Positions 12,828 to 64,000 of a DNA stretch of 64,000 nucleotides are shown here, in pieces (positions within the stretch are counted from its first letter, which is position 1; each line of letters begins with the position of its first letter). Source of the stretch: Arthrobacter crystallopoietes (GTDB lineage: Bacteria > Actinomycetota > Actinomycetes > Actinomycetales > Micrococcaceae). The notes under the pieces are model-generated. The model ran no database searches. It had not been told where the DNA came from and saw only the letters and a program-made list of their open reading frames with translations. The position numbers and the translations under genes were made by a program. The stretch covers positions 1,178,001-1,242,000 of the forward strand of contig NZ_CP018863.1 of assembly GCF_002849715.1 (NCBI RefSeq), written 5' to 3'.

Positions 12828-12858
12828 GGAAGTTCTCGCAATGCAATAAAGAACTTCC
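12828..12858 (+). promoter_or_regulatory. hairpin with a two-codon open frame upstream of bcp
   Basis: GGAAGTTC (12828-12835) pairs perfectly with GAACTTCC (12851-12858). The left arm overlaps a strong ribosome binding site, GGAGGAAG, which precedes ATG CAA TAA at 12841. The arrangement could act as a leader or attenuator for bcp, or be a weak terminator of the oxidase gene. Confidence 0.35.
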
Positions 12859-12880
12859 GCAATACGAAAGGTGCTGCTCC

Positions 12881-13348
12881 ATGACGCAACTCCAGCCAGG
12901 AACCTCCGCCCCGTCCTTCACGCTGCCCGATGCCTCGGGCAGCAAGGTTTCGCTGGCCGACTACGCCGGCCGCAATGTGGTGGTCTATTTCTACCCGAAG
13001 GCCGCCACCCCGGGCTGCACCACGGAAGCCTGCGATTTCCGCGACAACCTGAACTCGCTGCAGGCCGCCGGTTTCGACGTCGTCGGTATCTCCCCCGACG
13101 GACCCGAAGCGCTGCAGGACTTCGCCGAGGCCGAATCGCTGACCTTCCCGCTCCTCTCCGACACCGACAACGAGGTGGCCAAGGCCTATGGCTCGTTCGG
13201 CGAGAAGGAATTCAAGGGCAAGACGTTCACCGGCACGCTGCGCAGCACTGTCGTCGTCGATCCTGATGGCAATGTCCGCCTGGCCGAGTACAACGTGGAC
13301 GCCAAGGGCCACGTTGCGCGGCTGCGCGAATCGCTCGGCGTGAACTGA
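12881..13348 (+). CDS. bcp: thiol peroxidase (peroxiredoxin), Bcp/PrxQ type
   Basis: The 155-residue protein has the PrxQ/Bcp signature TPGCTTEACDF with peroxidatic Cys46 and resolving Cys51, and the normal family length. It reduces hydrogen peroxide and organic peroxides with electrons from thioredoxin in the cytoplasm. GAAAGG lies before the ATG. Its place directly after a peroxide-producing flavin oxidase suggests that it removes the by-product, although Bcp is also a general housekeeping enzyme. Confidence 0.95.
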   Translation: MTQLQPGTSAPSFTLPDASGSKVSLADYAGRNVVVYFYPKAATPGCTTEACDFRDNLNSLQAAGFDVVGISPDGPEALQDFAEAESLTFPLLSDTDNEVAKAYGSFGEKEFKGKTFTGTLRSTVVVDPDGNVRLAEYNVDAKGHVARLRESLGVN

Positions 13349-14977: not shown

Positions 14978-16333
14978 TCAGGCAGTCCCGCGGCGGATCA
15001 ACCGGCCGGTAGGCGTCTCGCCGTCGATCTCCGCGCCGCGCAGGAACGTGCGGCGGACGACTCCGGCCAGCGGCTTGCCGTCGTAGGGCGTGATCGGGTT
15101 CTTGTGCTTGAGCTTCTTCGCGTCCACCACGAAGCTTTCATCCGCGGCAAAGACGGAGAAGTCGGCGTCGTAACCCAGCGCCAGCTGGCCCTTCCGGGTC
15201 ATCCGCGCGAGCTCGGCCGGCCGTCGCGACATCCAGTCCACCACCTGCTCCAGCGGGATCCCCCGCTGCCGGGCCTCGGTCCAGATCAGCGAGATCCCCA
15301 GCTGCAGCGAGGCGATGCCGCCCCAGGCCACGCCGAAATCGCCGTTCTCCAGGTCCTTCAGATCCAGCGTGCTGGGCGAATGGTCCGAAACGATGCAGTC
15401 GATGATGCCGTCCTCCAGGCCCTTCCACAGCAGCTCCCGGTTGGATGCCTCGCGGATGGGCGGGCAGCACTTGAACGCCGTCGCACCGTTGGGGATTTCC
15501 TCCGCCAGCAGTGTCAGGTAGTGCGGGCAGGTCTCCACGGTGAGCTTCACGCCGTCGCGCTTGGCACTGGCGATCATCGGCAGCGCGTCCGAGGAGGATA
15601 GGTGCAGGATGTGGGCGCGGGCGCCGGTCCAGCGGGCCCGCTCGATCACCTCGGCGATGGCCACGTTCTCGGCGCCGCGCGGGCGGGAGGCCAGGAAACG
15701 CTGGTACTGGTCGCCCTCGGCGTGCGGCGCCCGCTCAATGGCGCGCGAGTCCTCGGCATGGACGATCATCAGCGAGTCGAAGTTCTTCAGCTCCGCCATG
15801 TCCTTTTCCATCTCGTCCGCATCCAGCGGCGGGAACTCGTCCACGCCGGAGTGCAGCAGGAAGCACTTGAAGCCAAAAACGCCCTCGTCATGCAGCGGCC
15901 GCAGGTCCCCGATGTTGCCGGGCACCGCCCCGCCCCAGAAGCCCACGTCCACGAAGGCCTGGTCCCGGGCGGCGTTGCGTTTTTCCTCCAGCGCGGCGGC
16001 GTTGATGGTGGGCGGGATGCTGTTCAACGGCATGTCGATAATGGTGGTCACGCCACCGGCGGCCGCGGCCCGGGTGGCGGAGGCGAAGCCCTCCCACTCG
16101 GTGCGGCCGGGCTCGTTGACGTGCACATGCGTGTCCACCAGCCCGGGGATCAGCGTTTCGTCGGGTGCCAGCTCAAGAATTTCGCGGCCGCGCAGCCCGT
16201 TGCCCAGCGGTTCGATGGCCACAATCGAGCCGTCCCGCACGCCGACCTCACGTGCGGCGACCCCCGCCGTCGTCAGGATCCGCTCGCCCCGAATGACCAG
16301 GTCGTATTCCGGTGAAGTTGCTTCGCCGCCCAC
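14978..16333 (-). CDS. allB: allantoinase
   Basis: The 451-residue protein is a cyclic amidohydrolase of the AllB type. Metal-binding motifs are visible: DTHVHVNEPGRTEWEG near residue 66, FKCFLLHSG with the lysine that is usually carboxylated, IVHAEDS, HILHLSSS and VSDHSP. It opens the hydantoin ring of allantoin to give allantoate in the cytoplasm. The GTG start at 16333 directly follows the TAA of the glycerate kinase gene, with AGAGGGGAG as ribosome binding site, so translation is probably coupled. It is the last gene of the hyi-glxR-gcl-glxK-allB operon. Confidence 0.95.
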   Translation of the reverse strand: MGGEATSPEYDLVIRGERILTTAGVAAREVGVRDGSIVAIEPLGNGLRGREILELAPDETLIPGLVDTHVHVNEPGRTEWEGFASATRAAAAGGVTTIIDMPLNSIPPTINAAALEEKRNAARDQAFVDVGFWGGAVPGNIGDLRPLHDEGVFGFKCFLLHSGVDEFPPLDADEMEKDMAELKNFDSLMIVHAEDSRAIERAPHAEGDQYQRFLASRPRGAENVAIAEVIERARWTGARAHILHLSSSDALPMIASAKRDGVKLTVETCPHYLTLLAEEIPNGATAFKCCPPIREASNRELLWKGLEDGIIDCIVSDHSPSTLDLKDLENGDFGVAWGGIASLQLGISLIWTEARQRGIPLEQVVDWMSRRPAELARMTRKGQLALGYDADFSVFAADESFVVDAKKLKHKNPITPYDGKPLAGVVRRTFLRGAEIDGETPTGRLIRRGTA

Positions 16334-17506
16334 TTATGCTCCCCTCTGAGCTTCCAGTTTCCTGCCGCCCGCGATATCACCCGCCAGCAGCCGCAGTCCG
16401 ATCTCCGCGCCGATGCTTTCAAGCAGCCTGCCCGCCTCGGCCATGCAGACGGAGACGTCACTTTCAAGATCCGTCAGGGCGAACGTTTGCGCAAGCCCTG
16501 CCGATTCCAGCTGAGTGTCCGACAAAAGTGTACGGCCGCAGACCGCGAAAACGGGCACGCCGGCCGCCGCGGCTTCGGTGGCCACGCCGATGGGCGTCTT
16601 GCCCTCAAGGCTCTGGGTATCCAGGCTGCCCTCGCCCGTGATCACCAGGCCCGCCCCGGCGAGTTTGTCGCGCAGGCCGGTCAGTTCAATAACGACGTCG
16701 ATGCCGCGCCTGCGCTGCGCCTCCAGCACTGCCAGTGCCGCGAAACCAACGCCGCCGGCGGCTCCGGAGCCGGGCACGTGCGCCATCGCGGCCGTGCCCG
16801 CTCCCAGTTCGGGCCCGAGGACCCGGACAAACTGGGCCAGGGCGGCGTCCAGCGTCGTGACGTCCTCCGGCGAGGCGCCCTTCTGCGGGCCGAAGACGGC
16901 GGCGGCGCCGTTCTCGCCCAGCAGCGGGTTGTCCACGTCCGACGCCAGCACGAAGGAAACGCCCGCCAGCCGCGGATTCAAGCCGGACAGGTCCACCTCG
17001 GCGAGCCGCGCCAAAGCCGCGCCGCCGCGCGGAAGGAAGCGTCCGCCGTCGTCCTTCAGGATGGCGCCCAGTCCTTGAAGCAGCCCCGCGCCGCCGTCGG
17101 TGCAGGCACTGCCGCCCACCCCGAGGATGATGCTGGTGCAGCCGAGGTCCAGGGCCGCGCTGATCAGTTCCCCGGTGCCCCGGCTCGTCGCGGTGAGCGC
17201 CTGCAGCCGGCCGCCGGGCAGCACATCCAGCCCGGAGGCCGCGGCCATCTCGATCACGGCCTGTTGGCCCTTGACCGCGATGGCCGCCTCCAGCGGCATG
17301 CCGGTCGGTCCGGCAACGGTGGCGAGATGCCGCGTGTACCCGGCGCCGACGGCGGCCTGAAGGGTGCCTTCACCGCCGTCGGCCACGGGAACGTTGGTGA
17401 CCTGGATGTCCGGGGCGACCGCCCGCAGGCCACGCTCCACCGCCGCGGCGACTTCCGGGGCGGTGAGCGAGCCCTTGAACTTATCCGGTGCAATCACCAC
17501 TTTCAT
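16334..17506 (-). CDS. glxK: glycerate 2-kinase (GlxK/GarK family)
   Basis: The 390-residue protein starts MKVVIAPDKFKGSLTA, the standard signature of the type I glycerate kinase family, and has VGGSACTDGGAGLLQGLG near residue 128 and ITGEGSLDTQSLEGKTP near residue 287. It phosphorylates D-glycerate, probably to 2-phosphoglycerate, and feeds glyoxylate carbon into glycolysis. The start lies 7 bases after the gcl stop and the stop abuts the allantoinase GTG, so the three genes are one transcription unit. Gene context supports the allantoin/glyoxylate role. Confidence 0.93.
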   Translation of the reverse strand: MKVVIAPDKFKGSLTAPEVAAAVERGLRAVAPDIQVTNVPVADGGEGTLQAAVGAGYTRHLATVAGPTGMPLEAAIAVKGQQAVIEMAAASGLDVLPGGRLQALTATSRGTGELISAALDLGCTSIILGVGGSACTDGGAGLLQGLGAILKDDGGRFLPRGGAALARLAEVDLSGLNPRLAGVSFVLASDVDNPLLGENGAAAVFGPQKGASPEDVTTLDAALAQFVRVLGPELGAGTAAMAHVPGSGAAGGVGFAALAVLEAQRRRGIDVVIELTGLRDKLAGAGLVITGEGSLDTQSLEGKTPIGVATEAAAAGVPVFAVCGRTLLSDTQLESAGLAQTFALTDLESDVSVCMAEAGRLLESIGAEIGLRLLAGDIAGGRKLEAQRGA

Positions 17507-17513: not shown

Positions 17514-19292
<1,779 letters not shown>

Positions 19293-19426: not shown

Positions 19427-20305
19427 TTACTTCCGGCCGGAGAGCTGCAGGACCTGCTTGAACAGGCCCGAGTGGTCCAGTCCGCCGTCGCCCTGGTTGA
19501 CGGTCGCGGCGACCAGCTGTGCAACGGCGGCGCCAAGCGGGATGGCCACGTTTGCTTCACGGGCGGCGGAGGTGACGATGCCCAGGTCCTTGTGGTGCAA
19601 GGCGAGGCGGAAGCCCGGGTCGAAGTTGCGGTCCAGCATCTTCTGGCCCTTCTGCTCCAGCACCTTCGAGCCGGCCAGGCCGCCGCCGAGCACCTTGAGC
19701 GCGGCGTCGGTGTCCACGCCGTAGGCCTCGAGGAAGGCGATGGCCTCGCCGAGGACTTCAATGTTCACGGCGACGATCAGCTGGTTGGCAGCCTTGACCG
19801 TCTGACCGGAACCGGAGGGGCCCACGTGCACGATGGTCTTGCCCACGGCGTCGAAAACATCCTGCGCGGCGTCGAAGTCGGCCGCCTCGCCGCCGACCAT
19901 GATGGAGAGCACGCCGTCGATGGCGCCCTGCTCGCCGCCGGAGACCGGGGCGTCCAGCGGGCGGAGGCCTGCGGCGCGGGCCTCTTCGGCGAGGCGGACG
20001 GCCACATCGGGGCGGATGCTGCTGGCATCAATCCAGAGCGCGCCCTGCTTGGCGTTGGCGAAGACGCCTTCCTCGCCGGTGACCACGGCTTCGACGTCCG
20101 GCGAGTCCGGCACCATGGTGATAACGACGTCGGCGTCCTTCACGGCGTCGGCGATGCTGCTGGCACCCGTGCCGCCTTCGGCCGCGAGCTTGTCGATCTT
20201 GTCCTGGCTGCGGTTGAAGCCGGTAACACTGTGGCCGGCCTTGACGAGGTTGATGGCCATGGGCAGGCCCATGATGCCGAGTCCGATAACTGCAACGTTG
20301 GTCAT
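19427..20305 (-). CDS. glxR: 2-hydroxy-3-oxopropionate (tartronate semialdehyde) reductase
   Basis: With the ATG at 20305 the product is 292 residues, the normal length. It begins MTNVAVIGLGIMGLPMA, the NAD(P)-binding motif of the beta-hydroxyacid dehydrogenase family, followed by DAPVSGGEQGAIDG (substrate-binding signature, near residue 120) and the catalytic lysine region GQTVKAANQLIV near 168. It reduces tartronate semialdehyde to D-glycerate. It lies between hyi and gcl in the same direction. The frame opens further upstream, but those residues do not resemble the family, so the internal ATG was chosen. Confidence 0.93.
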   Translation of the reverse strand: MTNVAVIGLGIMGLPMAINLVKAGHSVTGFNRSQDKIDKLAAEGGTGASSIADAVKDADVVITMVPDSPDVEAVVTGEEGVFANAKQGALWIDASSIRPDVAVRLAEEARAAGLRPLDAPVSGGEQGAIDGVLSIMVGGEAADFDAAQDVFDAVGKTIVHVGPSGSGQTVKAANQLIVAVNIEVLGEAIAFLEAYGVDTDAALKVLGGGLAGSKVLEQKGQKMLDRNFDPGFRLALHHKDLGIVTSAAREANVAIPLGAAVAQLVAATVNQGDGGLDHSGLFKQVLQLSGRK

Positions 20306-20370
20306 GAGATAAGTCCTTTGCTTCGTGCTGGTCGGTAAGAGTCTGTGCTGAGTGCCGGTCAGGCGGGCGG

Positions 20371-21153
20371 TTAGCGGATGAGCCAGCCGAAGGCCTGCTC
20401 GGCCGGCGCCTTGTACTCGAGTCCGATGGGACCCTGGTAGCCGAGTTGGCGGCTGCGGGAGATCCATTCGCCGAGCGGCAGTTCACCGGTGCCGGGGGCG
20501 CCGCGGCCGGGGTTGTCCGCGATCTGGATGTGGCCGAAGTCCTTGGCATGGTTCTCGATGACTGCCGCCACGTCGTCGCCGTTGACGGCCAGGTGGTAGA
20601 AGTCCGCGAGGAGCTTGATGTTCTGCGGACCCTCGGCGTGGACCTTGCCGATCACATCAAGTGCGTCCTGCGCAGTCTTGAGCGGGTAGCGGTCCGCGCC
20701 GGAAACGGGCTCGAGCAGGACGGTTCCGCCGATCGCGGCGACACCTTCGGCCGCGGCGACGAGGTTGGCCAGCGCCACTTCGTCCTGGGCCTCCGGGGTG
20801 TGCCCGTCCAGGCGGTTGCCGTAGAGCGCGTTGAAGGCCTTGCAGCCGAGGCGCTCACCGATACCGGCGACGACGGCGATGTTGTCGCGGAATTCGGCGT
20901 CGCGTCCCTTCCAGGACACCAGGCCGCGGTCGCCGCCCGGCATGTCGCCGGCATTGAAGTTGAGCCCGGTGAGCTGGACGCCGGCGTCGTTGATCGCGCG
21001 TTCAAACGCAGTAACGTCTGCGTCGCCGGGAACGGATTCGGCGAACGGCCACCAGAACTCCACGCTGTCGAAGCCAGCGGCGACGGCGGCCGCGGGGCGT
21101 TCCAGCAGGGGCAGTTCGGTGAAGAGGATGGAGCAGTTCACGGTGTAAGACAT
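20371..21153 (-). CDS. hyi: hydroxypyruvate isomerase
   Basis: The 260-residue protein is a sugar-phosphate-isomerase-type TIM barrel of the Hyi family (N-terminal YTVNCSILFTELPLLERP, then FDSVEFWWPF with a metal-ligand region, TVLLEPVSGADRYPL near 144, and GHIQIADNPGRGAPGTGEL near 206). It interconverts hydroxypyruvate and tartronate semialdehyde. CGAGGAAT precedes the ATG. It is the first gene of the glyoxylate-salvage operon, and two palindromes that match the putative IclR-type operator lie 23-110 bases upstream. Confidence 0.93.
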   Translation of the reverse strand: MSYTVNCSILFTELPLLERPAAAVAAGFDSVEFWWPFAESVPGDADVTAFERAINDAGVQLTGLNFNAGDMPGGDRGLVSWKGRDAEFRDNIAVVAGIGERLGCKAFNALYGNRLDGHTPEAQDEVALANLVAAAEGVAAIGGTVLLEPVSGADRYPLKTAQDALDVIGKVHAEGPQNIKLLADFYHLAVNGDDVAAVIENHAKDFGHIQIADNPGRGAPGTGELPLGEWISRSRQLGYQGPIGLEYKAPAEQAFGWLIR

Positions 21154-21175: not shown

Positions 21176-21190
21176 TTCCAGAATGTGGAA
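21176..21190. promoter_or_regulatory. putative IclR-family (AllR-like) operator, hyi promoter site 1
   Basis: TTCCA-GAATG-TGGAA is a perfect palindrome around 5 bases, 23-37 bases upstream of hyi, placed to overlap the core promoter or transcription start. It matches the recurrent pattern TTCCR-N5-YGGAA found at other purine-locus promoters in this window. Confidence 0.6.
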
Positions 21191-21248
21191 GTTTACTTTT
21201 GCTCTACGAAAAGCGTACCGAGTGACCGCGAGCACTGTCAAGCTTCTT

Positions 21249-21284
21249 TTCCATAAAACGGAAACGCTTTTCCATAAAAACGAA
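21249..21284. promoter_or_regulatory. putative IclR-family operator, hyi promoter site 2 plus half site
   Basis: TTCCA-TAAAA-CGGAA (21249-21263) fits the pattern TTCCR-N5-YGGAA. A second TTCCATAAAA begins 21 bases later (21270), that is two helical turns, but its right half is degenerate (ACGAA). Tandem spacing on one DNA face suggests cooperative binding of two dimers. Confidence 0.6.
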
Positions 21285-22147: not shown

Positions 22148-22969
22148 TCAGAGAACGATCTGGCGGTTCACGTCCTTGTACAGCAGGTAGCGGAAGTTGG
22201 ACGGGCCGCCGGCGTAGCAGGCCTGCGGGCAGAACGCGCGCAGCGACATGTAGTCGCCTTCCTGCACCTCGACCCAGTCCTCGTTCAGCCGGTAGACCGC
22301 CTTGCCCTCAAGCACGTACAGGCCGTGCTCCATGACATGCGTTTCGGCGAACGGGATGGAGGCGCCCGGCTCGAACGTGACGATGTTGATGTGCATGTCG
22401 TACGCCAGGTCATCGACCGGCAGCATCCGGGTGGTGCGCCACTTGTTGTCCGTGCCCGGCATCGGGTTGGGCTCAAGGTCCTGCTCGTTGCCGAATACCG
22501 GCTTCGCGGTGTAGCCCTCGAGGGCTTGGTAGGCCTTGCGGATCCAGTGGAACTTGGCGGCAGCACCGCCGTCGTTCTTCACCTGCCACTGGGAACCGGC
22601 CGGCGCGTAGGCAAAGCCGCCGGGGGCCAGGACGCGGTTTTCGCCTTCGATAGTGACGCTGAGTTCGCCGTCGACGACGAAGATGAAGCCCTCGACCGTG
22701 CTCTGCGCCTCGGGCTTGGCCGAACCGCCGCCCGGGGCGACCTCCATCAGGTACTGGGCGAAGGTGGTGGCGCCGCCGGCGACCGGGCGGTTGAGGATCC
22801 AGACGCGGGTATCCTCCCAGTCGGGCAGCACACTGGTGACGATGTCGCGCATGACGCCGCGCGGGATCACCGTGTAGGCCTCGGTGACGATGGCGCGGTC
22901 CGTCAGCAGGTCCGTCTGCGGCGGGTGGCCGGCCGGGTTGGCGAAGTACTGCGTGTTCTGCTTAGTCAT
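22148..22969 (-). CDS. allE: (S)-ureidoglycine aminohydrolase
   Basis: With the ATG at 22969 the product is 273 residues, the family length. It is a two-domain cupin: N-terminal cupin near residues 60-140 (STVEGFIFVVDGELSV, FAYAPAGSQW) and a C-terminal cupin near 190-265 with the metal-binding ETHVMEHGLYVLEGKAVY. AllE binds Mn and releases ammonia from (S)-ureidoglycine to give (S)-ureidoglycolate. GAGGAAA precedes the start, which overlaps the stop of the upstream aldolase-like gene by 8 bases. It is the last gene of the malic enzyme-malate synthase-aldolase-allE operon. Confidence 0.95.
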   Translation of the reverse strand: MTKQNTQYFANPAGHPPQTDLLTDRAIVTEAYTVIPRGVMRDIVTSVLPDWEDTRVWILNRPVAGGATTFAQYLMEVAPGGGSAKPEAQSTVEGFIFVVDGELSVTIEGENRVLAPGGFAYAPAGSQWQVKNDGGAAAKFHWIRKAYQALEGYTAKPVFGNEQDLEPNPMPGTDNKWRTTRMLPVDDLAYDMHINIVTFEPGASIPFAETHVMEHGLYVLEGKAVYRLNEDWVEVQEGDYMSLRAFCPQACYAGGPSNFRYLLYKDVNRQIVL

Positions 22970-24251
22970 GGGTTTCCTCGCTGGTGGAAGCGGATTGGGG
23001 ATGGGCGATGGCCTCGAGCTGGGCGACGGACACCTCGGCCAGGCGCTCGAACTCGTTGCTTTCGACGGCGCCGCAGACCAGTCCGCGGTGGAGGAAGCGG
23101 GCCAGGGCGCGGGCCGTGGCCGGTTCATCCATGATGGCGCTGTCGATGCCGTGGACATAGTTCTTCAGCCGGACCGCGGCAGCCTCGAAGCCGTCGCGGT
23201 AGAAGGCGTAGGTGGCCAGGAAGCGGGTGGGCAACTGGGCCGAGTGCAGGTCCCAGCCCTGGTAGATGCCGCGTTCCAGGTGCCGGCGGACCAGGCGTGC
23301 GTGCAGCGCCCAGGCCTTGGCCACATTCTCCGCATCGCCGAGCGGCAGGATGTTGGTGGACCCGTCCGAGAGGTGCACGCCGGTGCCGGCCACGGCCACC
23401 TGCATGACGGCCTTGGCGTAGTCCGCCGCCGGGTGCTCCATGGACTGGTAGGCGGCCGCAATGCCCAGCGACGCGCTGTAGTCGTAGGTGCCGTAGTGCA
23501 GCGAGCTGACCCGGCCGGCGCCGGCGTGGATCAGCTGCGCCACCGGGACCGTGCCGTCCGCGGACAGGATCAGCTGCGGGGTTTCCATCTGCACCTCGAA
23601 GCGCAGGCGTCCCGCGGGCAGGTTATGCGCCTGCTCCAGCTGCTCGCAAGCGAAGACCATAGCCTGCACCTGGGCCACCGTGCTGACCTTGGGCAGCGTC
23701 AGCACCAGGCCCTGAGGCAGGCCGCGCTCTCCGGACTCCTCCACGAGGGCGCCGATGAACCGGTCCAGCGTGCGCAGGCCACGGGCCCGGGTGGGCTCTT
23801 CGAAGCACTTGAACCGGATGCCGATGAACGGCGGAGCGGTGCCGGCGGCGACGGCCTGCGCCACGAGGGCACCGGCCTTCAGCGCGTCGGCGTCCTCTTC
23901 CTCGTCCGCGCGGTTGCCGTAGCCGTCTTCGAAGTCCAGCCGCAGGTCCTCGATGGGCTCGCTTTCGAGCTTGCGGCGGACCAGTTCGGCCAGCTGGGCG
24001 CTCTCCCCCAGGCCGAGGGAGGTTGCCAGCTGCTCCAGGCCGCCGTGTTCCTTCACCGCGGCCAGCGCGTCCCCGCCCCAGCGTGCGGCCAGGTCCAGGG
24101 TGAACGAGTCGGCCGGGACGTAGACCGTGTGCACCGGCTGGCGGCCGCCGCCCTCGCCCGGGTAGGCGGCGGACAGCAGCTTATCGGTGGCCGCCAGGTC
24201 CGCGTCGATCCTGGCCGCGACGGCGCCGGAGAGGGCGAGCTTGGCCGCCAT
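22962..24251 (-). CDS. CitE/HpcH-like aldolase-family protein of unknown substrate (DUF6986-like)
   Basis: The 429-residue protein resembles the HpcH/HpaI-CitE aldolase superfamily: EDLRLDFEDGYGNR near residue 100 supplies the acidic metal and phosphate region, GIRFKCFEEPTRARG near 148, LTLPKVSTVAQVQ near 187, RLRFEVQMETPQLIL near 217 with a metal-binding glutamate, and SSLHYGTYDYSASLGI near 248. It overlaps malate synthase by one base (ATGA) and allE by 8 bases, so it is translated as part of the glyoxylate/ureide unit. A lyase or synthase acting on a glyoxylate- or malate-related compound is plausible. Such proteins have sometimes been named phosphoenolpyruvate kinase without strong evidence. 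Confidence 0.7.
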   Translation of the reverse strand: MAAKLALSGAVAARIDADLAATDKLLSAAYPGEGGGRQPVHTVYVPADSFTLDLAARWGGDALAAVKEHGGLEQLATSLGLGESAQLAELVRRKLESEPIEDLRLDFEDGYGNRADEEEDADALKAGALVAQAVAAGTAPPFIGIRFKCFEEPTRARGLRTLDRFIGALVEESGERGLPQGLVLTLPKVSTVAQVQAMVFACEQLEQAHNLPAGRLRFEVQMETPQLILSADGTVPVAQLIHAGAGRVSSLHYGTYDYSASLGIAAAYQSMEHPAADYAKAVMQVAVAGTGVHLSDGSTNILPLGDAENVAKAWALHARLVRRHLERGIYQGWDLHSAQLPTRFLATYAFYRDGFEAAAVRLKNYVHGIDSAIMDEPATARALARFLHRGLVCGAVESNEFERLAEVSVAQLEAIAHPQSASTSEETHD

Positions 24252-25869: not shown

Positions 25870-27255
25870 TTACTTGGCCGCTGCGGCCGACGCTACAGCT
25901 GCGGCGACGTCGGATGCCACGTGGGGGTCGAAAACACTGGGAATGATGAAGCTGGCGTTGAGCTCTTCGCCTGACACACGATCCGCAATGGCGTGGGCCG
26001 CGGCGACCAGCATCTCGGGCGTAATGTCCGCGACACCGGCGTCGAGCAGCCCGCGGAAGAAGCCGGGGAAGGCCAGCACGTTGTTGATCTGGTTGGGGAA
26101 GTCGCTGCGTCCGGTAGCGACGACGGCGGCGTACTTCGCCGCGATCGCCGGGTCCACCTCGGGATCCGGGTTGGCCATCGCGAAGATGATGGCGTCGTCG
26201 GCCATGGTGGCCACCTGCTCCTCGCCCAGCACGTTCGGTCCGCTGACGCCGATGAAGACGTCGGCGCCGGCCACGGCGTCGTGCAAGGTTCCAGTGAAGT
26301 TGTCCGGGTTCGTGTTCTCTGCCAGCCAGGTCCGGTGTGCATCGGTGTAGGTCTCGGTGCGGCTGATGGCACCGTTGCGGCCGCAGGCGATGATGTTCAG
26401 CGCGCCCTGTGCCTTCAGCAGCTGGATGATCGCGTTGCCCGCGGCACCGACGCCGGCCACCACAATCTTCACGTCCTCGATCTTCTTGTGGACTACCTTC
26501 AGCGCGTTCTGCAGCGCGGCCAACGTGACGATCGCGGTACCGTGCTGGTCATCGTGGAAGACCGGAATGTCGAGCTCATCGCGCAGGCGCTGTTCGATCT
26601 CGAAGCAGCGCGGAGCTGCAATGTCTTCCAGGTTCACACCGCCGTAGACCGGCGCCAGGGCCTTGACGATCTTGATGATCTCCTCGGTGTCCTGGGTGTC
26701 CAGGCAGACCGGCCAGGCGTCGACGTCGGCGAACTGCTTGAACAGGGCGGCCTTGCCTTCCATTACCGGCAGCGCGGCGGCAGGCCCGATGTTGCCCAGC
26801 CCCAGTACGGCGGAGCCGTCCGTGACCACGGCGATGGTGTTGCGCTTGACCGTCAGGCGGCGGGCGTCGTCCGGGTTCTCGGCGATGGCCATGCAAACGC
26901 GTGCGACGCCGGGGGTGTAGGCGCGGGACAGATCGTCACGGTTGCGCAGGGGAACCTTGGGGACAACCTCCAGCTTGCCGCCGAGGTGCATGAGGAAGGT
27001 GCGGTCGCTGACCTTGCGGACCTGCACGCCGTCGAGCTCGTCCAGCGCAGCGCTGACCCGCTCGCCGTGGGCGGCGTCGACGGTGTTGCAGCTGATGTCC
27101 ACGACCATGCTGTCGTGGTGGCTTTCGGTCACATCAAGTGCCGTGATGGCTGCACCGGCGGCAGCAACAGCGGCTGCGAGCTCGCTGGTAGCGGTGAAGC
27201 TTGCAGGGGTTTCCACACGCAGGGTTATCGAGTACCCGGGGCTGGGAGTCGCCAT
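25870..27255 (-). CDS. NAD(P)-dependent malic enzyme with N-terminal ACT-like domain
   Basis: The 461-residue protein has an N-terminal ACT-like domain (about residues 8-80, [10 protein letters not shown]...DSMVVDIS) followed by a malic enzyme core: [50 protein letters not shown], the metal site [17 protein letters not shown] and the nucleotide-binding [16 protein letters not shown]. It decarboxylates malate to pyruvate. It is the promoter-proximal gene of the operon with aceB, so glyoxylate can flow through malate to pyruvate. It diverges from the IclR-type regulator, with three operator-like palindromes between. Confidence 0.93.
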
Positions 27256-27296: not shown

Positions 27297-27423
27297 TTCC
27301 GTATTATGGATATTATTATCTAAGAAGTGGAAATACAACCACCTCCGCAACATTTTCTTTCGACAGGCGGAAATTAAGCAGCAGTTTGCGGTATGTTTGA
27401 GAGAGCAGTTCCACGAAGTGGAT
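27297..27423. promoter_or_regulatory. divergent promoter region with three putative IclR-type operators
   Basis: Between the malic enzyme and the IclR-family gene three near-palindromes match TTCCR-N5-YGGAA with one mismatch each: TTCCG-TATTA-TGGAT (27297-27311), TTTCG-ACAGG-CGGAA (27358-27372) and TTCCA-CGAAG-TGGAT (27409-27423). They are placed to control both the operon and the regulator itself. The stretch is AT-rich compared with its surroundings. Confidence 0.55.
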
Positions 27424-27452: not shown

Positions 27453-28217
27453 ATGGCAGAGAAAGCCAGCGGAGGCGTCCAGTCAGTCGAGAGGGCTTTC
27501 GAGCTGCTCGAGCTCATTACCAATGCCGGCGGAGAGGTCACCCTGAGTGAGCTGTCGTCGTTCACCTCGCTGCCCCTGCCGACCATTCACCGGCTGCTGC
27601 GCACCCTGGTTTCGCTGGGCTACGTCCGGCAGCTCGCCAACCGGCGGTACTCGCTGGGCCCGCGCTTGATCCGCCTGGGCGAAGTGGCCAACAAGCAGCT
27701 TGGCTCCCTCGCCCGTCCGCACCTGAAGAAGCTGGTTGAGACGCTGGGCGAATCGGCGAACATGGCGGTACTGGACTCCGAGATGGTGGTCTACATCGCC
27801 CAGGTTCCGTCGCCGCACTCCATGCGCATGTTCACCGAAGTCGGCCGCCGCGCCCATACCCACGACACCGGCGTCGGCAAGGCCATTCTCGCCCAGCTGG
27901 AAGACGACACCGTCCGCGACATCGTCACGCGTGCCGGCATGCCGACACCCACCGAGATGAGCATCGGCAACATCTCCGACCTCATGCTGGAACTGAAGAA
28001 CATCCGCGAGCGCGGCTACTCCATCGATGAGCAGGAGCAGGAAATCGGCGTACGCTGCTTCGCGATGGCCGTACCGGATGCTCCGACCCCCATGGCCATC
28101 TCCGTTTCGGGACCCGTTTCGCGGGTTGATGATGCCTTTGCCAAGCGGGCGGTGCCGCTCCTGCAGAGTGCCGCGGAGCAGATCTCGGCGCAGCTGAACG
28201 CGGCCGCGGCGAGCTAG
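27453..28217 (+). CDS. allR: IclR-family transcriptional regulator (AllR-like)
   Basis: The 254-residue protein has a winged helix-turn-helix at residues 8-65 (SVERAFELLELI, LSELSSFTSLPLPTIHRLL, YVRQ...YSLGPRL) and an IclR effector domain (about 75-250, with GESANMAVLD, HTHDTGVGKAILAQL and GYSIDEQEQEIGVRCFA). IclR-family AllR proteins repress allantoin and glyoxylate genes and respond to allantoin or glyoxylate. Its central place between the two glyoxylate operons supports that role; the symbol is by analogy. GTGAG-type ribosome binding site. Likely autoregulated through the palindrome at 27409-27423. Confidence 0.85.
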   Translation: MAEKASGGVQSVERAFELLELITNAGGEVTLSELSSFTSLPLPTIHRLLRTLVSLGYVRQLANRRYSLGPRLIRLGEVANKQLGSLARPHLKKLVETLGESANMAVLDSEMVVYIAQVPSPHSMRMFTEVGRRAHTHDTGVGKAILAQLEDDTVRDIVTRAGMPTPTEMSIGNISDLMLELKNIRERGYSIDEQEQEIGVRCFAMAVPDAPTPMAISVSGPVSRVDDAFAKRAVPLLQSAAEQISAQLNAAAAS

Positions 28218-28440
28218 GTTCCAACGCTTTTTCACATCCCAAAAAAGAAATTCCACAAAAGGTGTGGCCTCAGTCACTGTGAGCTGTTAGAGTTTTTCTT
28301 GCCAAAGGCGGGTTCCCATCTACGGGAGCTATCTACCGGGCGCTACTAACCTAAACAGCAATCGTCGAAGCTGAGGTCGCCGCCCGCGCCAGTCTGGTGC
28401 CATGCCGTGGCCCGCTTCCCGATCACAGGGAGTCGCCACC

Positions 28441-28935
28441 ATGAATACCACCACCATCTCCACCAGCCAATATCTGGCCAAGGCCGTCGAAATCGCCTCC
28501 AACAATGTCCGCAATGCCGGCGGGCCCTTCGGCGCCATCGTGGTTGCCGCGGACGGGCAGATTTTCGAGGGCGTCAACCGCGTCACCGCGAACAACGATC
28601 CCACCGCGCACGCCGAAGTCACCGCCATCCGCACCGCCTGCCAGGGCCTGGGCACGTTCGACCTGAGCGGAGCCGTACTCTACTCCAGCTGCGAACCCTG
28701 CCCGATGTGCCTGGCCTCCTCGCTCTGGGCACGGATCGACCGCGTGGTCTTTGCCGCGGACCGCCACGATGCCGCCCGCGCGGGGTTTGATGACGCCGTC
28801 TTCTACGACTACTTCGACACCCCGGTGGAGCGCCGGCTGATGCCCGTGGTCCGCGAGACCGGCGAACCAGGGGACACAGGGCATCTCGAACCCTTCAATA
28901 TATGGAACAGCCTGGCGATCCGGATCGATTACTGA
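28441..28935 (+). CDS. guaD: guanine deaminase (cytidine deaminase fold)
   Basis: The 164-residue protein has the zinc site of the CDA superfamily: HAEVTAI (ligand His and catalytic Glu) near residue 61 and SSCEPCPMCLASSLWA near 83. The C-terminal FYDYFDTPVERR and the length match bacterial guanine deaminase of the GuaD type, which makes xanthine from guanine. The next genes (purine permease, xdhC, xdhB, xdhA) take the pathway on to urate, which supports the call over a tRNA or cytosine deaminase. The ATG at 28441 has AGGGAG upstream; an in-frame ATG at 28402 lacks one. Confidence 0.88.
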   Translation: MNTTTISTSQYLAKAVEIASNNVRNAGGPFGAIVVAADGQIFEGVNRVTANNDPTAHAEVTAIRTACQGLGTFDLSGAVLYSSCEPCPMCLASSLWARIDRVVFAADRHDAARAGFDDAVFYDYFDTPVERRLMPVVRETGEPGDTGHLEPFNIWNSLAIRIDY

Positions 28936-28947: not shown

Positions 28948-30477
28948 ATGGCCATAATCCAGCCCAGAACCCGTACCAGCACCGGCACCGGCAATGTCCA
29001 GCAGGGCGCTCCCGGCACACTGGGCACTCCCCCGGCCGGCCTGCAACCCCGCGGACTCGTCGACCGCTACTTCCAGATCACCGCGCGCGGCTCCAGCCTG
29101 GGGCGCGAATTCCGCGGCGGCCTGGTCACGTTCTTCACGATGGCGTACATCGTCATCCTCAACCCCCTGATCCTCGGCGGCTTCGGCGCCGATTCCGCTC
29201 CCGTGGACGTGGCCGGAAACTGGCTGCCGGCCGCGCAGGTCGGCGCCGTCACCGGACTGACCGCCGGCGTGATGACCATCCTCTTCGGCCTGATCGCCAA
29301 CCTGCCCTTCGGCCTCGCAGCAGGCCTCGGCATCAACTCCTTCCTCGCCGTCGCCGTCATCCAGGACGTCACCTGGCCCGAAGCCATGGGCCTGGTGGTG
29401 ATCAACGGCGTCCTGATTGTCATCTTCGGCATGACCGGTGCCCGGACCGCGATCTTCCGCGCCATCCCCAAGGATCTGAAGGCCGCCATCACCGTGGGCA
29501 TCGGCCTGTTCATTACCTTCATCGGCTTTGTGGACTCCGGCTTTGTCCGCGCCACCGAGGGCGGCCCGCCCGTCCAGCTGGGCAACAACGGTTCCATCAC
29601 CTCGGTGCCCACCCTGGTCTTCGTGGCCGGGCTGCTGATCATCGGCATCCTGGTAGCCCGCAAGGTCCAGGGCGGCATCCTGATCGGCATCGTCGCCACC
29701 ACGGTCCTGGCCGCGGTCCTCGAAGCCACACTGCAGCTGGGGCCGGCGTCCGACACCAATCCGGGCGGCTGGCATCTGAACACCCCGGTGCTCGCCGGCC
29801 AGATCTTCGCGGTCCCGGACCTGACCCTGGTGGGAGAGTTCGACGTCTTCGGCTCCTTCGCCCGGATCGGCGGACTGGCAGCCACCATGCTGGTCTTCAC
29901 GCTGGTCTTCACCAACTTCTTCGACGCCATGGGCACCATGACGGGCCTGGCCAAGAGTGCCGGGCTGGCGCACAAGGACGGCACCTTCCCGCGGCTGAAG
30001 TCGGCGTTCATCGTTGAGGGCATCGGCGCAGTGGCCGGCGGTGCCACCTCCGGCTCCTCCAACACCGTCTACGTCGATTCCGCCGCCGGCATCGGCGAGG
30101 GCGCCCGCACCGGGCTGGCCTCGGTGGTCACCGGCGTGCTTTTCCTCGGCGCCATGTTCCTGACGCCGCTCACCAGCGTGGTGCCGATCGAGGTGGCGGC
30201 CTCGGCCCTCGTCGTCGTCGGTACGTTGATGAGCGCGCAGATCCGCGAGATCAACTTCAAGAAGTTCTCCGTGGGCATGCCCGCCTTCCTGACCATGATC
30301 ACCATGCCGCTGACCTACTCGATTGCGAACGGCATCGGCGTGGGCTTCATCGTCTGGGTCCTGGTCAACTCGGCCAGCGGGCGCGCGAAGAAGATCCATC
30401 CGCTGATGTGGGTGGTGGCGGCAGGGTTCCTGGTCTACTTCGCCCGCGGCCCGATCAGCACGCTGCTCGGCGGATAA
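28948..30477 (+). CDS. NCS2-family guanine/hypoxanthine permease (AzgA/PbuG type)
   Basis: The 509-residue membrane protein has the AzgA-subfamily start of the core, GLVTFFTMAYIVILNPLIL (near residues 57-75), then GLAAGLGINSFLA, DFFDAMGT-type motif (NFFDAMGTMTGLAKSAG, near 326) and GATSGSSNTVYVDSAAGIGEGARTG shown by its ends GATSG and ARTG. These features define proton-coupled transport of guanine, hypoxanthine or adenine rather than urate/xanthine. It starts 12 bases after guaD, so uptake and deamination are coupled. Confidence 0.9.
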   Translation: MAIIQPRTRTSTGTGNVQQGAPGTLGTPPAGLQPRGLVDRYFQITARGSSLGREFRGGLVTFFTMAYIVILNPLILGGFGADSAPVDVAGNWLPAAQVGAVTGLTAGVMTILFGLIANLPFGLAAGLGINSFLAVAVIQDVTWPEAMGLVVINGVLIVIFGMTGARTAIFRAIPKDLKAAITVGIGLFITFIGFVDSGFVRATEGGPPVQLGNNGSITSVPTLVFVAGLLIIGILVARKVQGGILIGIVATTVLAAVLEATLQLGPASDTNPGGWHLNTPVLAGQIFAVPDLTLVGEFDVFGSFARIGGLAATMLVFTLVFTNFFDAMGTMTGLAKSAGLAHKDGTFPRLKSAFIVEGIGAVAGGATSGSSNTVYVDSAAGIGEGARTGLASVVTGVLFLGAMFLTPLTSVVPIEVAASALVVVGTLMSAQIREINFKKFSVGMPAFLTMITMPLTYSIANGIGVGFIVWVLVNSASGRAKKIHPLMWVVAAGFLVYFARGPISTLLGG

Positions 30478-57398: not shown

Positions 57399-58307
57399 CT
57401 AGCAGAATCCGGGGATATTTGCCCAGACTTCATGCGTGGCGGGGGAACCCTCACGCTGGATGGTGGCTTCGATCAATCCGTACGGCCGGTCCGCGGCGAA
57501 GAACACTTCGTTGGGGTTGTCCTGGCCGAACGGGCTCAGGTCCACCAGGAAGTGGTGCTTGTTCGGCAGCGACATCTTGATCTCGTCGATTTCCGGGTGC
57601 GCCTCAAGGACAAGGCGGCCCATTTCGTACATGCTCTGCTGCAGTGCCAGGGAGTGCGTCTCCGCAAATCCCTTGAGCAGCAGTGCACGGACGCTGGCGT
57701 AGACGGCGTCGAAATCGACGTCGAGGGTGTTGTAGCGCCAGCGCGCGGTCACATCGGTGGCGAGGATCCGGTCATTGGTTTCCTGCAGCGTGGTGTACTG
57801 ATCCCTCGGGAAACCGTGGAATTCCGAACCGGTGGACTTCAGGACAGTGAGGTCCTCGATGCCTGCCACGATGGTCTTCTTGTTGCCGGAAATCTCGAGC
57901 ACCGCGGTGCGGACTTCGCTCTTGTTCCGGGAGAAGGCGTGGTCGTGGTCGTTGATGCGGTCCCAGAAGTACTGCTCCGCCGACCAGCGTCCGCCGGTGA
58001 CCCAGTCGAAGCTCTCCGTGAAATGGTTGCCAAGACGGAGCAGGAACTCCTCCGTGGTGGCAACGCCATCGCGGGCGAGGGCGTACACGGTGTTCTTCTG
58101 GGTATCGGTGGCGACCACGTGGGCGTTGTCGCCGGCGGTGTGTGCCGCTTCGAAGTCGCCGCGCAGCTGCGAGGTGACGTTGAGGTCCTGGATCTGGTGG
58201 CGGTCGGTGTCCCGGGTGATTTTGACCAGTCGGACTTCGGCCTTGCCGTACTGGTTCTGGCCCAGGACGATGCGGGTGCCGGTGGCGGATTCCACGGTGG
58301 CGGTCAT
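57399..58307 (-). CDS. uaZ: urate oxidase (uricase)
   Basis: The 302-residue protein is a cofactor-free urate oxidase with two T-fold domains. Signatures are QNQYGKAEVRLVKITRD near residue 17, the VVATDTQKNTVYALAR region near 64 (Thr of the active-site triad), FSRNKSEVRTAVLEI near 125, and LPNKHHFLVDLSPFGQDN near 250. From memory it closely matches the Arthrobacter globiformis uricase, which has the same length. It oxidises urate to 5-hydroxyisourate and hydrogen peroxide. It starts 3 bases after the hydroxyisourate hydrolase stop, in the operon OHCU decarboxylase-HIU hydrolase-uricase. Confidence 0.97.
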   Translation of the reverse strand: MTATVESATGTRIVLGQNQYGKAEVRLVKITRDTDRHQIQDLNVTSQLRGDFEAAHTAGDNAHVVATDTQKNTVYALARDGVATTEEFLLRLGNHFTESFDWVTGGRWSAEQYFWDRINDHDHAFSRNKSEVRTAVLEISGNKKTIVAGIEDLTVLKSTGSEFHGFPRDQYTTLQETNDRILATDVTARWRYNTLDVDFDAVYASVRALLLKGFAETHSLALQQSMYEMGRLVLEAHPEIDEIKMSLPNKHHFLVDLSPFGQDNPNEVFFAADRPYGLIEATIQREGSPATHEVWANIPGFC

Positions 58308-58309: not shown

Positions 58310-58651
58310 TTAGCTCCCTCGGTATGTTGAGTATGCAAACGGGCTGATGAGAAGTGGTACGTGGTAGTGCTCTGCTGTGTCCTTCACTTCGAAGGTCAGC
58401 TCCACGAACGGGAAGAAGGTTTCCGTACCCTTCTGCCCAAAGTAGGGGCCGGTTTCAAACGTGATCCGGTAGATCCCTGCTTCGATCGCCTCGGGGCCAA
58501 GATTCTTGATACGACCGTCGTTGTCCGTATGCTCCGTGGCGATTTCTTGCCAGCCGGTTGCCGTTTTGGCTTCCAGTGTGGCCTTGACACCGGAGGCAGG
58601 CCTCCCGGTCCCGGTGTCGAGAATGTGGGTGGTGACATGGCTGACGCTCAT
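58310..58651 (-). CDS. uraH: 5-hydroxyisourate hydrolase
   Basis: The 113-residue protein is a transthyretin-like enzyme: SHVTTHILDTGTGRPASG at the N terminus and the invariant YRGS at the C terminus (residues 110-113), with the active-site histidines in THILD and YHVPLLISPF. It hydrolyses the uricase product to OHCU. Its start overlaps the OHCU decarboxylase stop by four bases. Confidence 0.96.
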   Translation of the reverse strand: MSVSHVTTHILDTGTGRPASGVKATLEAKTATGWQEIATEHTDNDGRIKNLGPEAIEAGIYRITFETGPYFGQKGTETFFPFVELTFEVKDTAEHYHVPLLISPFAYSTYRGS

Positions 58652-59142
58652 GCTTCGATGACTCCTTCAAGTCGGAGGATGGCGATTTCGCGCAACTGGC
58701 CGGCGACGACGGCGATTTCCTCGTCGGGCGAATTGCGCAGCCGCTTTTCCAGCTGGCTCAGAATTTCCTCTGCGCTGCGGCCGGCGGCACGGATCAGAAA
58801 GACCCTGTCGAACTTCTTTTCGTACGCCTGGTTGCCTGAGCGGAGCTTGTCCTGGACTTCGGCGGACTGTGCGACGCCGGATTGTTCCTTGCGGGACATA
58901 TCCGCCTCGGTGCTGCTGCCGGCGGCCTTTTCTCCGATGCGCGGATGGTGCGCCAGGGCGCCGTCGATCTCTTCTTCCGTCCAGGGCTGGGCCGCCTGCT
59001 CGGCGAACGACAGAAGCTCTTCGCGGCTGCTGAAAGGACGGGCATGGATTATCTCGGTGGCCCAGCGCGTTATGTCGACGCAGGGGCGCAGCACGTCGAG
59101 GGCTGCGCTATCCGAGGCAGAATTAAAAGAGGCGAGATTCAT
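58648..59142 (-). CDS. uraD: 2-oxo-4-hydroxy-4-carboxy-5-ureidoimidazoline (OHCU) decarboxylase
   Basis: The 164-residue protein has the all-helical OHCU decarboxylase pattern: FNSASDSAALDVLRPC at the start, the catalytic His66 in AHHPRIGEK, and NQAYEKKFDRVFLIRAAGRS near 110. It decarboxylates OHCU to (S)-allantoin. It is the first gene of the urate operon; the start has only a weak ribosome binding site. An operator-like sequence lies about 90 bases upstream. Confidence 0.95.
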   Translation of the reverse strand: MNLASFNSASDSAALDVLRPCVDITRWATEIIHARPFSSREELLSFAEQAAQPWTEEEIDGALAHHPRIGEKAAGSSTEADMSRKEQSGVAQSAEVQDKLRSGNQAYEKKFDRVFLIRAAGRSAEEILSQLEKRLRNSPDEEIAVVAGQLREIAILRLEGVIEA

Positions 59143-59227: not shown

Positions 59228-59242
59228 TTCTGTATGGTGGAA
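59228..59242. promoter_or_regulatory. putative IclR-type operator upstream of the urate operon
   Basis: TTCTG-TATGG-TGGAA matches the pattern TTCCR-N5-YGGAA with one mismatch, 86-100 bases upstream of the OHCU decarboxylase start. Confidence 0.45.
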
Positions 59243-59690
59243 TCTTTATTTCATAAATAGTGTAAGCGGTGTCACAGGGTACGTGTCAAGGGTACCGGAA
59301 ATTTATTTTTGCCGGCTACCGCCGCCGGACAGAGGATCCTGGGGGCCAACCGTCGACCGATACGGCGGCGGCCCCAACGGAACAGGGAGCTGGCCACCCT
59401 TTCCCGCCCGGGCAAGATTTACGACGGCGACGCGCAATCCGACATCGCAGTCCGGTCGGATTTGCTTCTGAAGCCGTAGCGAAAACCGTTGACCATAGGA
59501 TTCCGACCGCCGATCTGGCATCCTTGTCAGAACCAGGAACGGCCGGACCGACCCCGAAGCCTTCCTGCACGGTGGCAACACTTGCGGGCACCAAAGCGCC
59601 CGCCCGAAGATTCCTGCCCCAAACTTCTGTGCTCAACCTCTTGACCACCCCTCTGGCTCCGCCTAGCATTTTCATATAGCAATATTATTT

Positions 59691-59705
59691 TTCCGCTATT
59701 CGGAA
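59691..59705. promoter_or_regulatory. putative IclR-type operator upstream of the 59-residue gene
   Basis: TTCCG-CTATT-CGGAA is a perfect match to the pattern TTCCR-N5-YGGAA and lies 37-51 bases before the small gene at 59742, within an AT-rich promoter-like stretch. Confidence 0.6.
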
Positions 59706-59741: not shown

Positions 59742-59921
59742 ATGAATACACCCAGCCCCGAAACCAAGACCGGACAGTCAGCCACAGCCCATATCTACGA
59801 CGCCGGCGGCTCAGACCCGGATTTCTACATTCCGCCGACGCGCGTTCGTCACGGACAGGGCGGCCTGCTCAACACGCTGCGGAGCCTGCCGAGCCGGCTG
59901 GCTCGGGCCACGCGCGGCTAG
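59742..59921 (+). CDS. 59-residue protein of unknown function
   Basis: The frame starts at an ATG with TTGGAGAA upstream and ends at TAG 59919-59921. The product starts with a Ser/Thr/Pro-rich stretch, has HIYDAGGSDPDFYIPPTRV at residues 17-35 and a basic C terminus (LRSLPSRLARATRG). It has no membrane segment and no cysteine. A perfect IclR-type palindrome lies just upstream and a strong terminator follows, so it is very likely expressed. No family was recognised. Confidence 0.6.
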   Translation: MNTPSPETKTGQSATAHIYDAGGSDPDFYIPPTRVRHGQGGLLNTLRSLPSRLARATRG

Positions 59922-60011: not shown

Positions 60012-62753
<2,742 letters not shown>

Positions 62754-62802: not shown

Positions 62803-62838
62803 TTCCACAAGACGGAATGTTTATTCCGTTATGTAAGA
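62803..62838. promoter_or_regulatory. putative IclR-type operator between aceE and the SDR gene
   Basis: TTCCA-CAAGA-CGGAA (62803-62817) fits TTCCR-N5-YGGAA. A second TTCCG half starts 21 bases later (62824), the same spacing as at the hyi promoter. The pair lies 50-85 bases before aceE and also before the divergent SDR gene. Confidence 0.6.
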
Positions 62839-63681: not shown

Positions 63682-64000
63682 ATGAGACAGGCAAAGATTA
63701 TTGCCACGTTCGGCCCTTCCGTCGCCACCTACGAAAGTACGGTGTCGCTCCTCAGGGCGGGAGTCGACGTCGCACGTTTGAACATGAGCCACGGCGAACA
63801 TGCGGTGCACGAGGAAATATACAACAACATCCGCAAGGCCGCGTCCGAGCTGGACCAGCCGATCGCCATCTTCGCCGATTTGCAGGGGCCGAAGATCCGG
63901 CTGGGCAGGTTTGCGGACGGGCCGCACGAACTGCGCGTCGGGGACACGTTCACCATCACCACCGAGGACGTGGCCGGCACCGCTGAGCTCTGCTCGACGA
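63682..64000 (+). CDS. pyk: pyruvate kinase, N-terminal part (cut by window edge)
   Basis: The frame runs off the right edge after 106 codons. It begins RQAKIIATFGPSVATYEST and has LLRAGVDVARLNMSHGEH near residue 24 and ADLQGPKIRLGRF near 70, the standard pyruvate kinase A-domain sequences. TAAGGAG precedes the ATG. Pyruvate kinase makes pyruvate from phosphoenolpyruvate, the next step after glycerate kinase and enolase, so its place near aceE and the glyoxylate genes makes metabolic sense. Confidence 0.93.
   Translation, partial: MRQAKIIATFGPSVATYESTVSLLRAGVDVARLNMSHGEHAVHEEIYNNIRKAASELDQPIAIFADLQGPKIRLGRFADGPHELRVGDTFTITTEDVAGTAELCST

Follow-up and report, generated by a model that had tools for sequence, protein, structure and literature searches.

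The window analysed here, a stretch of 64,000 nucleotides from Arthrobacter crystallopoietes, raised the question of whether a palindrome that recurs before several of its genes marks a regulon and, if so, which regulator binds it. The initial annotation had listed eight positions of the pattern TTCCR-N5-YGGAA and had assigned all these promoters to an AllR-type regulon under the IclR-like gene at 27453. Our analysis led to an account in which we place considerable confidence: the palindromes would be operators of the IclR-family factor encoded at 27453, which would repress the route from guanine, urate and allantoin to acetyl-CoA and would likely be released by glyoxylate. Motif, architecture, conservation, target genes, co-occurrence and paralog contrast were taken from the sequence, and from these we infer the binder, the repression, the effector, the operons and the physiology. 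The features of the window are collected in Table 1.

Table 1. Predicted operators and genes of the regulon in the window. Scores of sites are those of the 36-bp matrix described in the text.
Feature	Position	Strand	Basis or score
Operator 5' of peroxiredoxin gene, absent from the initial list	12834..12869	-	score 36.3
Peroxiredoxin (AhpC/TSA), regulon copy	12881..13348	+	PF00578; second copy C1:4609336
Amidohydrolase, likely allantoinase (name inferred)	14978..16333	-	PF01979
Glycerate kinase	16334..17506	-	PF02595
TPP enzyme, likely glyoxylate carboligase gcl (name by context)	17514..19292	-	PF02775/PF00205/PF02776
Likely tartronate semialdehyde reductase glxR	19427..20467	-	PF03446/PF14833
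Hydroxypyruvate isomerase-like hyi, first gene of operon	20371..21153	-	best NCBIfam TIGR03234 240.5 bits, under cut-off 353.45
Operator O1, hyi operon	21176..21211	-	score 36.4
Operator O2, hyi operon, 73 bp from O1, contains noted half site	21249..21284	+	score 29.5
Bicupin, likely ureidoglycine aminohydrolase (name inferred)	22148..23158	-	two Cupin_2 stretches
DUF6986 protein, HpcH/HpaI-like	22962..24251	-	PF22484
Malate synthase, one of two in genome	24251..25855	-	PF01274
Malic enzyme (maeA)	25870..27255	-	PF00390/PF03949
Tandem operator between maeA and iclR, palindrome starts 27297 and 27318	27297..27332	+	score 43.8; similar block in many relatives
Weak operator-like match 5' of iclR	27358..27393	+	score 12.0
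One-mismatch palindrome 5' of iclR, doubtful	27409..27423	+	score 4.6
IclR-family regulator, proposed regulon controller	27453..28217	+	PF09339 HTH_IclR, PF01614 IclR_C
Operator between iclR and deaminase gene, absent from the initial list	28230..28265	+	score 26.4
Cytidine-deaminase-type deaminase, likely guanine deaminase (name inferred)	28402..28935	+	PF00383
Xanthine/uracil-type permease	28948..30477	+	PF00860
Urate oxidase	57399..58307	-	TIGR03383 360.9 bits, cut-off 168.4
HIU hydrolase	58310..58651	-	PF00576
OHCU decarboxylase, first gene of uricase operon	58648..59142	-	PF09349
Operator of uricase operon	59228..59263	+	score 20.3
Operator of microprotein gene	59670..59705	+	score 41.2
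Conserved 59-residue microprotein	59742..59921	+	homologs beside uricase genes in relatives
Pyruvate dehydrogenase E1 (aceE), second copy	60012..62753	-	TIGR00759 1376.9 bits; other copy C1:4328793
Operator between regulon aceE and SDR-pyk	62803..62838	+	score 29.0
Short-chain dehydrogenase (SDR)	62905..63672	+	PF00106
Pyruvate kinase gene start, continues past window end, second genome copy	63682..64000	+	PF00224 (L115:683-2134)

All eight listed positions fitted the pattern with at most one mismatch. Four of them (21176, 21249, 59691 and 62803) were exact and, all non-coding, made up the exact copies of the window; the other four (27297, 27358, 27409 and 59228) carried one mismatch. At most one mismatch was found at 15 places in the whole window, compared with a mean of 6.37 after dinucleotide shuffling, and 15 was reached by 1 of 100 shuffles. 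Nine of these places were non-coding on an approximate gene map, which leaves 13.6% of the window outside genes (binomial p 3.6e-5). In the 28 non-coding pieces of that map, 8557 bases in all, the nine sites were set against a shuffle mean of 0.97 and were reached in 0 of 300 shuffles, and the four exact sites were set against a mean of 0.035 and were reached in 0 of 1000, which upheld the statement that such recurrence is unlikely to have arisen by chance. Among the places absent from the earlier list, 794, 2528, 18939, 21610, 51693 and 61639 were coding on the map, and 12855 was non-coding and belonged to the strong operator at 12834-12869.

The spacer of the site was determined in 287 upstream regions of relatives. 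With n = 5, TTCCR-Nn-YGGAA was counted there 72 times, each time at a distinct site, and each of the other spacers from n = 0 to 15 accounted for at most two occurrences. Of 88 distinct exact sites of relatives, 22 had an extra TTYC box at a distance of 21 bases; any other distance between 16 and 40 accounted for 0 to 6 of the 88. The TTCC half site noticed 21 bases on at hyi was real, and it turned out to belong to a weak second palindrome within O2. The single palindrome first described is therefore the visible half of the operator, the full form of which is a tandem pair of TTYCR-N5-YGRAA. A 36-bp matrix was refined on sites of relatives, 153 distinct ones in all, neither the window nor the two named loci nearest to it being used. 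Its consensus was TTTCGTATTGCGGAA-N6-TTCCACAATATGAAA, that is, two TTYCR-N5-YGRAA palindromes spaced 21 bp centre to centre. Eight strong operators were found in the window by this matrix, comprising six of the eight listed positions and two further sites at 12834 and 28230. The remaining two listed positions, 27358 (12.0) and 27409 (4.6), are of doubtful role because they scored below 16.9, the best value in the reversed window. The main text of Suvorova and Gelfand 2021 (PMC8222616) gives WTTYCRYW3RYGRAAW as the motif of an IclR group 1 subgroup, predicts tandem sites with centres 18-22 nt apart for 94 orthologous groups and cites tetramer binding. The consensus TTTCGTATTGCGGAA agreed with this motif (WTT-11-AAW), the outermost W being left unscored, and the 21 bp between the centres fell within the tandem range.

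Across the whole genome the exact 15-mer was present at 36 places and the backward-read pattern at 14, and one-mismatch copies numbered 809 against 420 in the control. Of the 36 exact places, 32 lie outside the window, and a rough GC3 gene call made 25 of these 32 coding and none of the four within it, so the bare 15-mer was ruled out as a genome-wide predictor. The excess of TTCC...GGAA over its reverse and the coding position of most exact copies are what chance palindromes or a structural repeat without regulatory role might leave behind, an explanation that is hardly credible in view of the enrichment, the fixed spacer, the tandem offset, the orthologous conservation and the paralog contrast. 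Of the seven exact non-coding sites outside the window, several were not claimed as members: the one at C1:2099273, 5' of a P450 gene, adjoins an IclR paralog, and others lie 5' of a thiolase gene, an HD-domain gene and a Pfam-less gene, near a molybdenum-cofactor gene and on C3. A site at C1:2536218 scored 29.0 and belongs to an FAA-hydrolase gene (L101 1057-1974, with the tandem palindrome at 2019-2054) that adjoins a GntR/FCD regulator gene. Its tandem palindrome scores 29 to 37 in the sister genomes L138-L140, and the FAA-hydrolase gene is possibly a further member of the regulon.

Predicted operators preceded the run hyi-glxR-gcl-glycerate kinase-amidohydrolase, the run malic enzyme-malate synthase-DUF6986-bicupin with the divergent IclR gene, the deaminase and purine permease genes, the peroxiredoxin gene, the small ORF of the microprotein, the uricase run (OHCU decarboxylase, HIU hydrolase, urate oxidase and a permease), and the divergent aceE and SDR-pyruvate kinase genes, with operon structure read from gene spacing and several gene names from context. 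The true start of glxR is probably later than listed because its frame overlaps hyi. Far from the window, the pattern TTYCRN5YGGAAN6TTYCR, called three-box below, was found at C1:2537419, 5' of an NCS1 cytosine/purine/allantoin permease gene; the operator, the permease gene and an Asp/Glu/hydantoin racemase-family gene were kept in three sister genomes (L138-L140). In most loci of relatives the DUF6986 gene has the bicupin gene on one side and the gene of malate synthase or malic enzyme on the other, and its product might, at a guess, carry out a glyoxylate-releasing step. An AbiEi/AbiEii-type toxin-antitoxin pair occupies 13480-14957, between the peroxiredoxin and allantoin genes, and a gene with a C-terminal HTH_26 domain (21363-22070) diverges from hyi, the operator region being common to both.

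A search with the regulator returned 91 named loci, the closest 98% identical, of which the best 80 were kept. These came from Arthrobacter, Pseudarthrobacter, Paenarthrobacter, Sinomonas, Microbacterium, Nesterenkonia and MAGs, most with conserved neighbours. The exact 15-mer was present in 66 of these 80, and the 36-bp matrix matched at 18 or above in 79 of the 80, themselves part of its training set, against 0 of 80 reversed; the locus counts are not independent because the loci are related. Exact sites recurred upstream of hyi, the uricase run and aceE in relatives. A first matrix, trained on only 10 distinct uricase-promoter sites, was applied to the classes with at least 8 upstream regions, and a region passed if it beat at least 99 of 100 shuffles. 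The fractions passing were 1.00 of 51 for deam and 0.93 of 42 for g54190 (in many loci one divergent promoter common to both), 0.90 of 31 for hyi and 0.95 of 20 for ohcu, the training class, followed by iclR (0.46 of 87), uox-first (0.41 of 49), aceE (0.39 of 18), SDR (0.39 of 18) and maeA (0.33 of 82). That the upstream regions of iclR and maeA passed in under half of the loci counts against our account. Among operon-internal or unrelated classes none passed for xdh (8 regions), uraA (48), hiuH-internal (20), glxR (28), glxK (15), gcl (21), g55701 (60), g30408 (34), allE (44) and DUF6986 (82), and the classes uox-internal (0.18 of 17), pucD/allB (0.12 of 8) and aceB (0.03 of 71) were not quite empty. 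A count of gapped palindromes in the iclR upstream regions did not single out the motif, GATA-N4-TATC coming first in 49 of 81.

The regulator was present in 125 of 197 genomes of the family (IclR match at E<=1e-60, 51 to 100% identity) and absent by this measure from 72. With the reversed pattern as control, three-box matches numbered 137 against 18 in the regulator-positive genomes and 21 against 10, again above control, in the negative ones. At least one match was carried by 80 of the 125 positive and 16 of the 72 negative genomes (Fisher 1.2e-8, uncorrected for phylogeny and genome size), a co-occurrence confounded by phylogeny, genome size and pathway presence. The 21 matches in regulator-negative genomes would suit a different binder, with the 27453 protein a bystander, and candidates are at hand: the genome holds 33 IclR-type matches, the 27453 gene included, among them the paralog at C1:1246190, and the window itself encodes a PucR-type purine catabolism regulator (PF07905, HTH_30; 7711-10209, minus strand) as a second candidate regulator of purine genes. 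IclR motifs of like shape are also common, according to the main text of PMC8222616. Another binder nevertheless appears improbable, since the 27453 gene keeps its place beside the regulon genes and is itself preceded by an operator, its presence tracks the pattern over the 197 genomes, and the next paralog is just 35% identical. The motif here is of the IclR type, from which PucR sites would differ. The initial proposal of one IclR regulon centred on 27453 came through the two sequence-based checks that had been named as able to refute it, since the motif was enriched in the non-coding DNA of the window and was retained 5' of orthologous genes. It also agreed with the gene/operator co-occurrence, and the regulon is probably under the control of this one IclR-family protein.

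The 27453 protein was assigned to the IclR family by PF09339 (65.1 bits, cut-off 22) and PF01614 (125.7 bits, cut-off 24). It scored below the cut-offs of the equivalog models for BhcR (NF045644, 188.5 bits against 350, the best NCBIfam match), the glyoxylate bypass repressor IclR (NF008601, 155.6 against 380) and AllR (NF007548, 112.8 against 406). The label AllR-type was apt for the function, with gcl, hyi, glxR and the allantoin genes under one predicted operator as in an AllR-like regulon (operon structure and some names being putative), and did not agree with the family model. As is found in IclR-family autoregulation, an operator (27297-27332) stood 5' of the regulator's own gene, with a similar block in relatives. 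The effector domain could be aligned with that of the E. coli acetate operon repressor (1td5), the GLRC/GVRC and S-x-SGP stretches being among the aligned parts. On this likeness the effector would be a small 2-oxo acid, for example glyoxylate.

The position of the operators relative to the promoters was considered by consensus match. In a promoter scan, the uricase operator overlapped the -10 box of TTGACA-19-TACACT on the minus strand, the microprotein operator abutted TTGACC-17-TAGCAT, and at the peroxiredoxin gene a weaker box pair ended 10 bases short of where the operator starts. At hyi, O1 abutted TTGACA-18-TACGCT (21241-21212, minus strand), which was read by eye and was missing from the scan; with its stricter -10 rule, the scan returned nothing for hyi, maeA, iclR, deam, aceE and SDR. 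With the operator at or just past a -10-like box at four promoters, repression by covering the transcription start would be most likely. The centres, 21 bp apart, would set two dimers on the same helix face, so the two 15-bp palindromes of an operator would most likely be bound by a pair of dimers, and the repressor would most likely be released by a product of the pathway, glyoxylate being the most likely one. The same regulator might instead activate when bound to its effector, as BhcR does, and BhcR was the best NCBIfam match of the protein (below cut-off). IclR proteins are stated in PMC8222616 to include activators, and O2 of hyi sits upstream of the -35-like box. This possibility seemed rather unlikely, as operators that abut or overlap a -10-like box (hyi, ohcu, microprotein) or lie 10 bases past one (peroxiredoxin) occupy, so far as consensus matches tell, the position of a repressor site; activation could replace repression at some promoters.

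As a repressor, the 27453 factor would control the breakdown of guanine, urate and allantoin to glyoxylate and onward to pyruvate and acetyl-CoA. Malate synthase, malic enzyme and pyruvate dehydrogenase could together convert glyoxylate to CO2 with acetyl-CoA regenerated, a cycle that resembles the classical dicarboxylic acid cycle. The genes of this cycle lie behind operators of one kind, and flux through it is presumed. Second copies of enzymes under operator control would allow glyoxylate to be oxidised and the peroxide of uricase to be removed on demand. The genome has two aceE genes (plus one weak match below cut-off), two pyruvate kinases, two malate synthases and two peroxiredoxins of the regulon type. 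No operator was detected at the main pyruvate kinase locus (best 36-bp score 3.1) or at the second malate synthase locus (best score -8.3). For peroxiredoxin, the promoters of which were outside the training set of the matrix, the window-type copy had an operator in 8 of 8 two-copy regulator-positive genomes of the genus (scores 30 to 42). The other copies had one in 0 of 11 (scores <= -5.9; nine main copies, the window-like copy of the regulator-negative G007 and the sole copy of G151). The regulon copy lay on a different contig from the regulator in G105 and G038.

The same contrast was obtained for aceE. With a 36-bp matrix score of at least 18 required, 18 of the 29 regulon copies had an operator upstream; by group, these were 1 of 10 in Microbacterium and 17 of 19 elsewhere. 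None of the 16 others had one; they comprised 11 main copies of regulator-positive genomes, the two copies of the regulator-negative G025, and the single copies carried by G151, G007 and G026. In this comparison the copies were assigned to regulon or main by their neighbours, the window and L147-L149 represent near-identical species, and seven regulon promoters (L035, L059, L073, L078, L128, L143 and L146) were in the training regions. The regulon aceE copies without an operator, nine of ten rows in Microbacterium and two of 19 elsewhere, count against the account. Several of the Microbacterium rows (L079, L085, L088) share a TAGATGTAG-like word upstream of aceE, perhaps the site of another regulator. 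Among the 125 regulator-positive genomes 61 had two or more aceE matches, as did 2 of the 72 negative ones; nine of the 61 had a best match well under full score and may hold one gene in pieces, and seven genomes (six positive, one negative) had no aceE match.

The idea that aceE falls into two clades, regulon and main, was ruled out by a tree of 45 aceE proteins, in which regulon and main copies were interleaved and the starred branches forced at least 8 changes, with the regulon copies of the window's own genus group forming one clade. Within a genome, the DNA identity between the regulon and main copies was 99.93% in G181, 99.56% in G128, 93.9% in G176, 92.3% in G024, 90.6% in G192 and 82.0% in the genome of the window. 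The alignments spanned about 2.7 to 2.9 kb, approximately the reading frame, and the flanks were unaligned, including those of L171/L172 (G181) and L128/L162 (G128). Near-identical frames between unalignable flanks would be best explained by gene conversion or repeated re-copying of the aceE frame, with the promoters kept different.

The operator at 59670-59705 ended 37 bases 5' of a 59-codon frame divergent from the uricase genes. A motif scan of the loci of relatives gave 48 distinct frames of this kind, many with an AGGAGG-like ribosome site, and in 41 of them a TTYCR-N5-YGRAA palindrome lay 20 to 83 bases upstream; in the other 7 the site may fall inside the called coding part because the script gave the long frame. 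In an alignment of 25 members G22, D25, P26, D27 and P31 were invariant besides M1, the core was GG[TS]DPDFY[IL]P, and pN/pS was 0.22, 0.16 and 0.39 in three groups. Two database proteins were found with the sequence of the window alone and 190 with a profile at E<=0.01. The protein of the window had no Pfam match, and the 120 profile matches listed of the 190 likewise lacked a Pfam domain and were called simply hypothetical or uncharacterized. Structure prediction gave two short C-terminal helices at low confidence (mean pLDDT 63.9, pTM 0.21), a model of insufficient quality for comparing folds.

More tentatively, and against the balance of probability, the regulon could be a self-contained module for burning glyoxylate, in which malate synthase, malic enzyme and a private pyruvate dehydrogenase E1 complete a glyoxylate-oxidising cycle. 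Its aceE would repeatedly have overwritten or been overwritten by the housekeeping copy under a promoter that stayed with the regulator, and the microproteins of about 58 residues would be a new family that acts as a partner in urate uptake or oxidation. Through this work a motif spotted by eye became a regulon that is open to testing and has a defined 36-bp operator; the regulon probably serves the consumption of uric acid and allantoin in an Arthrobacter-like soil bacterium. The promoter sequence indicates which copy of a central enzyme serves purine breakdown, aceE offers a natural case of two genes near-identical in some genomes and differently controlled, and an unannotated conserved small protein is placed in a definite pathway.

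IclR-family regulons of allantoin and glyoxylate genes, the motif class and tandem sites were already known, and an AllR is also known from Streptomyces. The inclusion of second copies of pyruvate dehydrogenase E1, pyruvate kinase, malate synthase and peroxiredoxin and of an operator-led microprotein is new here; among open papers, none on this regulon was found by title or abstract. The group 1 operators of PMC8222616 are like those described here in the palindrome with a 5-base centre and the tandem spacing; its main text does not contain the word Arthrobacter, and this regulon may or may not be among its 181 groups, which are listed in the supplements. In P. aeruginosa, the allantoin-inducible gcl cluster PA1498-PA1502 (PMC12694930) is likewise dedicated to the conversion of allantoin-derived glyoxylate to pyruvate; the abstract of that paper makes no mention of malate synthase, malic enzyme or aceE. 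The E. coli AllR is also an IclR-family protein over glyoxylate and allantoin genes. Its consensus, given in Table 1 of PMC8222616, is likewise a palindrome with GGAA/TTCC arms, but the arms point the opposite way, GGAA...TTCC instead of the TTCC...GGAA found here. Unlike E. coli AllR, the 27453 protein is not an AllR equivalog, and its closest NCBIfam models are BhcR and E. coli IclR, yet it fell below the cut-offs of both. BhcR and E. coli IclR have target genes other than those of this regulon. The regulon described here is also wider than the E. coli AllR set of glyoxylate and allantoin genes, since it takes in the uricase genes together with malate synthase, malic enzyme, aceE, pyk and peroxiredoxin.
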